From the NCBI GenBank assembly GCA_021790305.1, contig JAJYED010000004.1:1-57351 (forward strand): DNA of 57,351 nucleotides, read 5' to 3'. The notes below the pieces were generated by a model. That model ran no database searches. It saw only the letters and a program-made list of their open reading frames with translations, and had not been told where the DNA came from. Source of the stretch: Microcaldota archaeon. Lineage in GTDB: Archaea; Micrarchaeota; Micrarchaeia; Micrarchaeales; CABMGC01. Made by a program: the position numbers and the translations under genes. Shown here piece by piece: positions 32,966 through 57,351 of this stretch (within the stretch, counting starts at the first letter, position 1; each line of letters begins with the position of its first letter).

Positions 32966-33688
32966 TTACTTCCTCTTTCTCAGGTCTGCCGTTATTATAT
33001 GGAAGTTTTTCTCTGCGTTGTCATAACCTAGCGCAGACTTGAAGACCTCTGCATCAAGAGTCATGGTGCTGTCAGAATAAGGATCGTTTATGTAGAATGC
33101 GTCCTTATCATAGCCTGTTACGACCACCCAGTGTGGTGATGACTCCATGTACGGATTTATCACATTTGCATCTATCAGCACTATGGGCAGCTGATTTGAA
33201 GAAAGTGCCTTCTTTATAGAATTTATCGTGATGTTGTTTGAGTGCTCCTCTGCAACCTTCATAGAGAGAGCTTTTTCCTTTATCTCGTTGAATGAAGCTG
33301 TGAGAGTATCAAGATTGACATTTTCATATACTGCGAGCTTCCTGTCGTACCCTTCATCCTTAGTATTGCTTATTATTTTTACCCTTGCGCCCCTCTTTGC
33401 AAGTGCGTATGCTATTCCGTACTTTGAACCGTGCCAGACGCTCCCGTTTACAGCTTCCTGCCATATGCCATACTCCTGATCCTTAGATAGCTTGAAGTTC
33501 TTGTTGATATATTTAAGTACCATCATGGTGCATGCTGCGGAGCTTGTGAATTCCTCTGTCTGCGGATAGTGAGGCACTTCAAGGGCGACCTGGGGCCTGA
33601 GCTTTGCCCTCTTAGCGTGATGCTGAGCTTTCGGAGTTTTCTTAACTGGTTTCGCCTTTTTCGCAGATTTCTTCTTGGTTATCGCCAT
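32966..33688 (-). CDS. C39-like (DUF3335-type) papain-fold protein with shifted Cys
   Basis: 240 residues. A Lys/Ala-rich tail (1-30) is followed by a papain-like domain: LEVPHYPQTEEFTSSAACTMMVLKY, WQEAVNGSVWHGSKYGIAYALAKRG, SPHWVVVTGYD (His186) and INDPYSD (Asp202). These match the PF11814-type C39-like peptidases, where the nucleophile motif is EFTCGPA; here position 49 is Ser and a Cys sits at 53. It may be inactive, a Ser variant, or use the moved Cys. The start is 17 nt after the tRNA-Leu 3' end, so the two are probably co-transcribed. Confidence 0.7.
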   Translation of the reverse strand: MAITKKKSAKKAKPVKKTPKAQHHAKRAKLRPQVALEVPHYPQTEEFTSSAACTMMVLKYINKNFKLSKDQEYGIWQEAVNGSVWHGSKYGIAYALAKRGARVKIISNTKDEGYDRKLAVYENVNLDTLTASFNEIKEKALSMKVAEEHSNNITINSIKKALSSNQLPIVLIDANVINPYMESSPHWVVVTGYDKDAFYINDPYSDSTMTLDAEVFKSALGYDNAEKNFHIITADLRKRK

Positions 33689-33705: not shown

Positions 33706-33803
33706 TGCAGGGAGAGAGATTTGTTCAGTGTTATTGAACTCTCGTAGGCCTAAGCCAACAGATCTTGAGTCTGTCGCGTTTGACCAGGCTCCGCCATCCC
33801 TGC
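33706..33803 (-). tRNA. tRNA-Leu (CAA) with a 13-nt T-loop intron
   Basis: Acceptor GCAGGGA/TCCCTGC, 7 bp; anticodon stem ACAGA/TCTGT with loop CTCAAGA, anticodon CAA; class II variable arm with a GGC/GCC stem; T stem GAGAG/CTCTC. The T loop has 20 nt instead of 7. Removing 33721-33733 (TAACACTGAACAA) restores TTCAAAT. The precursor folds into a bulge-helix-bulge: helix GTTC/GAAC, bulges AAT and AAA, each cut after its second base. CCA follows the discriminator A (33703-33705), possibly by chance. Confidence 0.9.
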
Positions 33804-33914: not shown

Positions 33915-35354
33915 ATGAGAGTGAAGAAGATTGATGAGTATAGGTTCAGGATAGAGAAAGACGCCTCTAGCGGCATGAATACAGGCGTGGTAATGTACTC
34001 CTCTGAAAAGCTTATGGCCAATCTTAAGAATGATAGGACGATGCAGCAGGCCGCAAATGCGGCAACGCTCCCTGGAATACGGGGTAATGTGATGGTTATG
34101 CCTGACGGGCATGAGGGGTATGGTTTTCCCGTAGGAGGCGTAGCTGGTTTCGACGCTGATGAAGGGATAATCTCTCCTGGGGCGATAGGATTTGACATAA
34201 ACTGCGGGATACGTGTCATAAGAACCAATCTTGAAGAATCAGATATAAGGAAGAATATGAAAAAACTCTCTGATGAGATATTCCTGAATGTGCCTAGCGG
34301 GCTTGACAGCAGGCTCAAAATAGGTTTTGAGCCTTCGGATTTAGAAAGAGTGGCTCAGGAAGGTGCAGCATATCTTGTAAGCAAGGGCTTTGGAGTCAGT
34401 GAGGATATAGAGCATATGGAGGAGAAGGGCTGCATGGAAGGGGCGGATTTCTCAAAGGTCAGCCAGCGTGCAAAATCAAGAGGAAAGAATCAGCTTGGCA
34501 CTCTCGGAGCCGGCAATCACTTCCTTGAGATACAGAAAATTGATAAGATCTTCGACAAGAAACTTGCAAAGGCTTATGGAGTCTATGAAGGACAGATAGT
34601 GATCATGGTGCATACAGGCTCACGGGGTTTCGGCCACCAGATATGCAGCGATTATCTTCGCACACTTGCGGAATATCAGGCAAGAAAGGGCATACAGATA
34701 GTTGATCCGGAGCTGAGCTACGCGCATGTTAAGAGCAAAGAGGCAGAGGACTACCTTAAGGCTATGAAGTGCGGGGTGAACTTCGCATTTGCAAACAGGG
34801 AGATGATAACGCACATAATAAGAGAGAGCTTTGAGAAGGTTATGGGAAGGAGTGCTGAGGAACTGGGAATGAGCTTGCTGTACGATCTTTCCCATAATAT
34901 AGCAAAGCTTGAGGAGCACAAGGTTGAGGGTAAAAAGGAGAGAGTATATGTGCATAGGAAGGGAGCTACAAGGGCTTTTGCAAAAGGAAGGAAGGAGATA
35001 CCTGAAGCTTATAGGGATTACGGGCAGCCTGTGCTCATACCCGGAAGCATGGGAACAGCCAGCTACATACTTGCAGGGGGAGAAGGAGCGATGGAGGAGA
35101 CTTTCGGTTCTGCGTGCCATGGTGCAGGAAGGGTGATGTCAAGACACCAGGCACTGCGCGAGATAGGAGCGGAGAAGACAATGGCCTCTATGAAGAGCAA
35201 GGATATAGAGCTCAGGGTGCATGACAGGAGGCTGGTAAGCGAGGAATCGGAGTGGGTATACAAGGACATAGATGAGGTAATAAGAGTGGTGGAAGGGGCT
35301 GGGCTTGCACTGCCGGTATCAAGGAATGTGCCCATAGCTGTGATAAAAGGCTGA
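33915..35354 (+). CDS. rtcB: tRNA-splicing ligase RtcB
   Basis: 479 residues, normal length with no intein. A GTP- and Mn-dependent ligase joining 2',3'-cyclic phosphate and 5'-OH ends after tRNA intron excision. Family motifs: VMPDGHEGYGFPVGGVAGFDADEGIISPGAIGFDINCGIR, LGTLGAGNHFLEIQ, MVHTGSRGFGHQI and the guanylylated His in CHGAGRVMSRHQA. It lies beside an intron-bearing tRNA-Leu and matches the need created by at least three spliced tRNAs in this window. Confidence 0.97.
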   Translation: MRVKKIDEYRFRIEKDASSGMNTGVVMYSSEKLMANLKNDRTMQQAANAATLPGIRGNVMVMPDGHEGYGFPVGGVAGFDADEGIISPGAIGFDINCGIRVIRTNLEESDIRKNMKKLSDEIFLNVPSGLDSRLKIGFEPSDLERVAQEGAAYLVSKGFGVSEDIEHMEEKGCMEGADFSKVSQRAKSRGKNQLGTLGAGNHFLEIQKIDKIFDKKLAKAYGVYEGQIVIMVHTGSRGFGHQICSDYLRTLAEYQARKGIQIVDPELSYAHVKSKEAEDYLKAMKCGVNFAFANREMITHIIRESFEKVMGRSAEELGMSLLYDLSHNIAKLEEHKVEGKKERVYVHRKGATRAFAKGRKEIPEAYRDYGQPVLIPGSMGTASYILAGGEGAMEETFGSACHGAGRVMSRHQALREIGAEKTMASMKSKDIELRVHDRRLVSEESEWVYKDIDEVIRVVEGAGLALPVSRNVPIAVIKG

Positions 35355-35466: not shown

Positions 35467-35997
35467 TCATTTAGATAATTTATACCTCTTAATTGTTTTA
35501 AAACGTCCTGTTTGCCTCTCTTCAACAATGTAGATATAATTGATTTTATGTATTCTTTTTATTTTCTTTGAATTCACTTCGTTAAATGCGTTTTTGAACT
35601 TGTTCTTTTGTATCTTATCTCCGACTGCGATATGTGGAATCCATAATTTTGTGGTATAATCAGTTGAAAATTTCTTACTATATAATTTAAAAAGATGATT
35701 TATTGCTTTATTCAACCTAATTAAGTCGCTTGTTCTTTTTATCTTATAGTATATCCTTCTTTTTGACCAATTAGTTAAACCGACAATCTCTATTTTGATG
35801 GGTTTAGTTTCAGAACTTATTTTCTTTAGTTCTTTTTTTATTTCGTTTAGATTTTTTATTTTTCCGATCTGGAAAGTTATGTGCGGATAATTATCTGAAG
35901 CTCCAGTTATTCCATTATATTTTCTTTCAAAGTCCTTGAAAAGTTTCATAAGTTTTTTATCGTCGTTTACAATTGATAAGATGTAGATTTTTGACAT
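35467..35997 (-). CDS. 2H phosphoesterase (2'-5' RNA ligase-like)
   Basis: 176 residues from ATG 35997 (GAGGGA 5 nt upstream). Two His-containing motifs, YPHITFQ and WIPHIAVGD, about 90 residues apart define the 2H superfamily (LigT/ThpR-like), which acts on 2'-5' or cyclic phosphate RNA ends. The gene is far more AT- and Lys(AAA)-rich than its neighbours, suggesting recent transfer. Its position near rtcB is suggestive, because both handle 2',3'-cyclic phosphate chemistry, but the transcripts converge. Confidence 0.75.
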   Translation of the reverse strand: MSKIYILSIVNDDKKLMKLFKDFERKYNGITGASDNYPHITFQIGKIKNLNEIKKELKKISSETKPIKIEIVGLTNWSKRRIYYKIKRTSDLIRLNKAINHLFKLYSKKFSTDYTTKLWIPHIAVGDKIQKNKFKNAFNEVNSKKIKRIHKINYIYIVEERQTGRFKTIKRYKLSK

Positions 35998-36049
35998 TTT
36001 ATTCCCTCTTTGGTCCACCTATAAGATTACTTTTGCCTTCTGTCTCTAC

Positions 36050-49127: not shown

Positions 49128-49267
49128 GGGGTTGTTGCGTAACTTGGCAGCGCGGCAGGCTCCAGATGTTTATAATCCAATGAGCCTTTCGGCGATGATG
49201 AGGATCTGGAAGTACCGAATAAATATGAAGTAACCTGCAAGTCGGGGTTCAAATCCCCGCAACCCCA
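49128..49267 (+). tRNA. tRNA-Trp (CCA) with 67-nt intron
   Basis: Acceptor GGGGTTG/CAACCCC; D arm GCG/CGC; anticodon stem GCAGG/CCTGC with loop CTCCAG-A, anticodon CCA. The intron (49166-49232) sits at the canonical 37/38 site. T arm CGGGG-TTCAAAT-CCCCG; discriminator A. The intron contains AATGAGCCTTTCGGC followed by ATGATGA, shared with the tRNA-Met intron. It does not show a full C/D set. Confidence 0.93.
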
Positions 49268-57136: not shown

Positions 57137-57228
57137 GATAATACAGAGCGCAACTGGTTGCCTCGTTCTTACAGCAATTACACTGTTCTTCGCGATAAAG
57201 GATTTGAGATGGCGCGAGGCATGAGTTT
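57135..57228 (+). pseudogene. Truncated remnant of the ABC permease 3' end
   Basis: The frame reads EIIQSATGCLVLTAITLFFAIK and ends WREA-stop, the same C-terminus as the permease at 55194-55937 with 15 codons deleted in frame and one Tyr-to-Cys change. There is no start or upstream part. It begins inside the rsgA stop region and ends at the tRNA-Met gene, marking the likely original permease-tRNA junction. Confidence 0.85.
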
Positions 57229-57347
57229 GGCGGGGGGGAGATTTGAACACCCGATCTCTAGATTTCTAAGATCATAGCCGAAAGGCTCATTACTCATCAT
57301 GCTATGCATATGAGTCTAGCGCTCTAACCAGGCTGAGCTACCCCGCC
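57228..57347 (-). tRNA. tRNA-Met (CAT, elongator-like) with 45-nt intron
   Basis: Acceptor GGCGGGG/CCCCGCC; D stem GCTC/GAGC; anticodon stem CTAGA/TCTAG, loop CTCATA-A, anticodon CAT. Intron 57264-57308 at the canonical 37/38 site. T loop TTCAAAT with one T-T mismatch in the stem; discriminator A. The anticodon stem lacks the G-C triplet of initiator tRNA, so elongator Met is most likely; tRNA-Ile2 with modified C34 cannot be excluded. The intron shares a core with the tRNA-Trp intron. Confidence 0.9.
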
Positions 57348-57351
57348 TTCG

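Follow-up and report, generated by a model that had tools for sequence, protein, structure and literature searches.

Results

A tRNA-Leu(CAA) gene with an interrupted T loop

The window, i.e., the whole 57,351-nt stretch of DNA analysed here, belongs to a 742-kb assembly (G000; ~82% complete) of an uncultured archaeon of the Micrarchaeota, a placement drawn from records that have the gene in common, of which one carries an identical tRNA sequence. Its minus strand encodes a class II tRNA with the anticodon CAA, flanked on one side by the divergently transcribed gene for the tRNA-splicing ligase RtcB and on the other by a C39-like peptidase-family gene (Table 1). Counting the discriminator base, and with no encoded CCA assumed in its delimitation, the tRNA gene is 98 nt long unspliced and 85 nt long spliced. 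Its Rfam alignment (45.1 bits) places an insert inside the T loop; the T stem, GAGAG/CTCTC, thus encloses a loop of 20 nt, TTCAATAACACTGAACAAAT, just as had been read from the DNA originally. ARAGORN calls no tRNA in the unspliced gene. Once 13 nt are removed, it returns a perfect 85-nt tRNA-Leu(CAA) with all stems paired and the T loop TTCAAAT, confirming the claim that excision of exactly this length restores the canonical loop; such a canonical product is expected of introns of the bulge-helix-bulge (BHB) type.

Table 1. Features of the tRNA-Leu(CAA) locus, with window positions and the evidence for each.
Feature	Positions	Strand	Evidence
C39-like peptidase-family gene, immediately 3' of the tRNA	32966..33688	-	PF11814, 91.8 bits
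tRNA-Leu(CAA) gene	33706..33803	-	Rfam RF00005, 45.1 bits; ARAGORN after removal of 13 nt
Outer helix: GAGA (49-52) with UCUC (60-63) at 33716-33719	33740..33743	-	4/4 paired in 116/118 sequences
Central helix, 5' strand GTTC (positions 53-56), exon	33736..33739	-	Pairs with intron GAAC in 118/118 sequences
5' bulge AAT, predicted cut after the second A (position 58)	33733..33735	-	Covariation of the next pair supports the register
Predicted 13-nt intron TAACACTGAACAA, position 58/59	33721..33733	-	Sequence; TTCAAAT restored; alignable inserts in 118 distinct tRNAs; orthologs lacking the intron
Residual inner helix: A (33732)-U (33727) pair enclosing 4 nt	33727..33732	-	Covariation in relatives, 98/112 paired vs. 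74 shuffled
Central helix, 3' strand GAAC, intron	33723..33726	-	Variants G-U compatible only: GAAC 86, GGAC 12, GAGC 10, GAAT 9, GGGC 1
3' bulge AAA, predicted cut after the second A, last base being exon A59	33720..33722	-	Variation in relatives; minimum-energy fold
rtcB, tRNA-splicing ligase, divergent neighbour	33915..35354	+	PF01139, 551.5 bits; sole rtcB match in the genome

A second, intact tRNA-Leu(CAA) gene, the counter-evidence named in the original prediction, was searched for, and none occurs among the tRNA matches from Rfam (40, with E values up to 10) in this ~82% complete genome. This bears on whether the gene could be a silent pseudogene, with UUG being read by another tRNA; a tRNA-Leu(TAA) in the genome could do so by wobble, and an assembly of this completeness leaves room for such a reading. 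Against it, no other CAA gene is present among those matches and the order as a whole has conserved both the cloverleaf and the anticodon, such that we give the pseudogene reading almost no credence.

Gene neighbourhood

The start of rtcB lies 111 nt from the tRNA gene. Within the family of the host, rtcB is adjacent in 20 of 22 loci, with the other two situated near contig ends; in a sister family, it is adjacent in none of 8 loci even though the intron is retained, and three intron-free genomes have kept the adjacency. That rtcB is the next gene was therefore correctly noted, and it is the only rtcB of the genome; the special link to the intron that this position might suggest does not hold, as the arrangement is a feature of one family and is not distributed in step with the intron. 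A functional tie between the two was thus not supported. Linkage to the C39-like gene is tighter than that to rtcB: it begins 17 nt past the tRNA on the same strand, and occupies the same place in 154 of the 156 intron-bearing loci (from two families) that have room downstream. Convergent with the adjoining rtcB is a 2'-5' RNA ligase/2',3'-cyclic phosphodiesterase family gene (35467-36018, minus strand), with a weak PF13563 match, the product of which could work on RNA termini with cyclic phosphates.

The insert in related genomes

Of the 60 nearest genomes, 55 carry an insert at the same tRNA-Leu(CAA) site; in four the T loop is uninterrupted, and the assembly of the remaining one lacks a CAA gene. 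Two pooled collections, for which part of the set was gathered via an exon pattern requiring GAGTTCAA and ATCTC, provided 118 distinct intron-bearing tRNAs with 111 distinct intron sequences between them. Intron lengths range from 10 to 21 nt (13 nt in 44 cases), and the spliced loop is TTCAA/AT (slash at the junction) in 118/118. In every one of these, GTTC pairs with four intron bases, where ~1.3% would be expected per random 4-mer, affording the 4-bp helix between exon and intron that defines archaeal BHB tRNA introns; with the register slid by 1 or 2, pairing with GTTC is found in 0/118. This constancy is partly forced because GTTC is a motif fixed by tRNA function, so that double changes are invisible and the central helix can display changes of the G-U type only. 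No such constraint applies to the first inner-helix pair, which does show compensatory change (A-U 79, U-A 8, G-C 5, G-U 4, C-G 2), with 98/112 paired against a shuffled mean of 74, and the second pair is formed in 35/49 versus 20.5 in shuffles; as the shuffles ignore kinship, and given the pattern used for part of the set, these figures constitute support and not exact probabilities.

Could the insert simply be retained, yielding a working but atypical tRNA with an enlarged T loop? The extended hairpin is stable by itself, which speaks for this reading. However, removal restores TTCAAAT across the entire set, insert-free orthologs possess exactly TTCAAAT or TTCGAAT, and the inserts vary in both length and sequence while keeping the splice-site pairing; retention is thus scarcely believable. 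On the strength of this comparative evidence, namely the inserts of relatives, the helix pairing, the covariation, and the intron-free orthologs, the T-loop insert is to be read as a genuine intron, and the predicted non-canonical site (58/59) with a BHB-type splice is supported.

The original description of this intron as among the shortest in archaeal tRNAs is true only in a loose sense. Archaeal tRNA introns are reported to span 11-129 nt with medians mostly of 12-25 nt (PMC4090602), and 13 nt is a common length. The version in Ca. Micrarchaeum harzensis is 18 nt long, and the shortest that we detected (L058; G023:C15), at 10 nt, is below the 11-nt minimum quoted in that source. A DNA-pattern match in Heimdallarchaeota (L110), which would have placed the intron in a second phylum, was rejected, its T arm being intact with a chance ATCTC downstream. 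A second GACTCAAGATC site in the host genome (C13:8593) coincides with none of the Rfam-listed tRNA matches.

Fold of the precursor

Alongside the central helix, two 3-nt bulges (AAU and AAA) fit the BHB architecture, with their register fixed by covariation and by the pattern of variation; cleavage would occur after the second base of each. In the minimum-energy fold of the host sequence, both the GTTC/GAAC helix and the AAA bulge are present, and the isolated T arm folds at -6.7 kcal/mol (z -2.8). This single-sequence fold pairs A57, and lacks the 5' bulge and the inner helix. In its strict form it was set aside, since the covariation among relatives supports the bulge. The inner helix amounts to one A-U pair in the host copy and reaches 2-5 pairs in 35/118 relatives, being often lengthened to this extent in introns of at least 14 nt. 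Because of this single A-U pair, and the single-sequence fold without a 5' bulge, the host copy sits at the border of BHB and bulge-helix-loop (BHL) structures, the inner helix (h') being what separates a strict BHB from the relaxed hBH/BHL forms. The "textbook" BHB of the original prediction is thus sound with respect to the helix and the 3-nt bulges, and comes close for the family as a whole, but overstates the case for this copy.

A 4-bp central helix is possible only if G53 pairs with an intron base and A52 with U60; the outer helix is then not the mature T stem but a version of it offset by one base. The base opposite G53 is C or U in 118/118 sequences, which supports a one-base slip of the T stem in the precursor. 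The alternative is an intact T stem accompanied by a 3-bp helix (TTC/GAA) and a 5-nt bulge, or else cuts at 56/57 or 57/58, all with the same product. Several cut frames do yield an identical product here, and the GAGAG/CTCTC stem is compatible with a 3-bp helix. Nonetheless, the pyrimidine opposite G53 is as expected of a paired base, and the +2/-7 covariation fixes the 5' bulge at 3 nt. Moreover, the last two intron bases, in the 3' bulge, vary among relatives (AA, AC, AT, TA) whereas exon A59-U60 is constant (AT in the DNA), fitting a cut after the second bulge base. We consider these other frames very unlikely, and favour the shifted T stem with cuts at 58/59.

Splicing machinery

The host genome has a single splicing endonuclease gene (G000:C29), encoding 384 aa in one ORF. 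In phmmer, its product matches the epsilon-2 enzyme of ARMAN-2 (PDB 4FZ2) with 505 bits over residues 10-384, with PF02778 and PF01974 both matched; it has the three-unit (alphaN-alpha-betaC) single-chain architecture of the epsilon-2 type. The proposed check of enzyme class (alpha4, alpha2beta2, or epsilon2) hence returns epsilon-2. In the alignment with the ARMAN-2 protein, the residues Y160/K161 of the ARMAN-specific loop (ASL) and the catalytic residues Y236/H251/K282 (positions named after PMC12397907) are conserved in 5/5 cases. The ARMAN-2 enzyme cleaves BHB and BHL pre-tRNAs in vitro, for which Y160 and K161 are needed (PMC12397907), and acceptance of relaxed sites by epsilon-2 enzymes was already known (PMC6379350, PMC4033280). 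By homology to ARMAN-2, the protein encoded here would form a homodimer with a relaxed substrate range, agreeing with the relaxed specificity that had been proposed for it. An archease gene is also present in the genome.

Intron loss and origin

Three genomes (G006, G183, and G206) have an intact T loop in a tRNA located between the same two neighbour genes, and their congener G032 has a 13-nt intron. G040 and G050 are intron-free in genera where others retain the intron; G048 is intron-free as well. In at least three genera with intron-bearing members, this locus thus also holds intron-free orthologs, and such presence/absence patterns, as compared by genus, would imply that the intron was cleanly lost at least three times. 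Another family in the class contributes three more intron-free genomes, at 96-97% identity over the first 70 bases. Further families of the class (L254, L255, L257, L271, L275) have T-loop inserts in Leu tRNAs, with loops of 38-127 nt, and one of these inserts ends in the same GAACAA/AT. The order either inherited a long intron and shrank it or gained its own, and we express no preference between these origins.

T-loop introns in other tRNAs

Two other tRNA genes of the host genome contain T-loop introns. In tRNA-Arg(TCT) (G000:C12:10376-10288, minus strand; L309 89-177), the intron is of 14 nt and best read at 59/60; ARAGORN misses the unspliced gene, the spliced form is a complete tRNA, and relatives have versions of 12-43 nt or none at this site. 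In tRNA-Ala(GGC) (G000:C29:16479-16580, plus strand; L308 80-181), a 30-nt intron is again best read at 59/60; tRNA finders misread this gene, which when spliced gives a complete tRNA with G3-U70, and the insert varies in length or is absent among relatives. Both leave the T stem intact and use a TTCA/TGAA helix, with one mismatch in that of Ala. The T loop is thus a regular intron site in this order, rendering the tRNA-Leu(CAA) finding less exceptional. Since ARAGORN missed tRNA-Leu(CAA), and these two further genes were missed or misread, Micrarchaeota may be credited with too few tRNA genes.

In tRNA-Leu(TAA) (G000:C31:4044-4126; L310), the insert is in the D loop and the T arm is intact. 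The last 39 bp of this gene repeat 1,040 bp downstream (C31:5128-5166; L311), in the manner of an att-like repeat that remains after integration of an element into the 3' end of a tRNA gene.

Discussion

A model for removal of the T-loop intron

Taken from the DNA and its comparison across relatives, our reading, which we hold with high confidence, is that pre-tRNA-Leu(CAA) carries an intron at 58/59 of the T loop that would be excised by the epsilon-2 endonuclease, with exon joining by RtcB and archease. In the precursor, G53-U54-U55-C56 would pair with intron GAAC, and this central helix would displace the T stem by one base (49-52 with 60-63), leaving the AAU and AAA bulges. The homodimeric endonuclease would then cut each bulge after its second base, upon which RtcB, aided by archease, would seal the exons to give the canonical T arm GAGAG-UUCAAAU-CUCUC. 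As the splicing helix cannot coexist with the mature T stem, splicing should come first, i.e., before elbow formation and any elbow-dependent maturation.

Such an order of events raises the question of a selected function, either as a maturation checkpoint, with the T arm unfolded until splicing, or as a means of spoiling a T-arm target of integrating elements. The intron is near-fixed in the order at one site, the T loop is the intron site in three different tRNAs of the host genome, and the tRNA-Leu(TAA) with an intact T arm is the one that shows the att-like 39-bp repeat ~1 kb downstream. Yet the intron sequence is unconserved beyond the splice site, and three or more genera have undergone precise losses for which no compensation is apparent; we thus regard a selected function as unlikely. 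A bolder version, that this near-fixed minimal intron is a lineage-wide maturation switch kept by selection, with the wrong-register T stem making elbow-dependent steps follow splicing and T-loop introns recurring in other tRNAs for the same reason, is likewise improbable and is offered as speculation. The intron instead appears to be a small relict, selected only to stay removable.

Relation to known systems

Archaeal T-arm introns have been named at 53/54, 56/57, and 59/60, in Crenarchaeota and others, and are short and BHB-type (PMC4090602, PMC6379350). The tRNA-Leu(CAA) intron resembles these, in that it lies within the T loop and its removal leaves a 7-nt loop. It differs in (i) its 58/59 site, which is absent from those named in PMC4090602 (in a list left open-ended with "etc."), (ii) its helix, which recruits G53 and shifts the T stem, and (iii) its persistence at one locus, at 10-21 nt, across almost the whole order. 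A further parallel is with ARMAN-2 (Ca. Micrarchaeum acidiphilum), a member of the same phylum with the same enzyme type and conserved ASL residues; its enzyme was assayed on pre-tRNA-Ile(UAU) and pre-tRNA-Cys(GCA), and the portion of that source drawn upon here describes no T-loop substrate (PMC12397907). The 2011 paper on ARMAN tRNA introns (10.1093/nar/gkr692) may already list this intron.

A splice junction within the T loop is shared with the permuted tRNAs of Thermofilum pendens and Cyanidioschyzon merolae (junction 59/60; PMC3218864), while tRNA-Leu(CAA) is instead encoded colinearly with an ordinary intron. Very short T-arm introns are also found in the nucleomorph tRNAs of Guillardia theta, where they are 3 nt long with removal confirmed by RT-PCR; those insertions are eukaryotic and of unknown mechanism, unlike the present case in which a BHB-type site and an enzyme are identifiable (PMC4090602).

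T-loop introns were thus already known in archaea, and that of tRNA-Leu(CAA) extends known biology without breaking it; what is added is order-wide conservation, a covarying inner pair, a 10-nt minimum, and repeated losses, and the mechanism itself is not new. With its 10-21-nt range and precise losses, the family provides a well-sampled natural series through which to study the lower size limit of spliceable introns in archaea, the clean loss of introns, and the recognition, by an endonuclease of broad specificity, of a site in competition with the tRNA elbow.

Further tRNA introns in the window

The last 124 bp of the window (57228-57351) hold a CAT-loop tRNA with a 45-nt intron, of which an identical copy is located near a contig end (G000:C12:31368-31487); the two are likely the same locus at an assembly break. 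The introns of this tRNA (57228-57347) and of tRNA-Arg(CCT) (67 nt; 49128-49267) have AATGAGCCTTTCGGC-ATGAT in common, which possibly reflects shared ancestry of the two introns or a guide RNA embedded in them.
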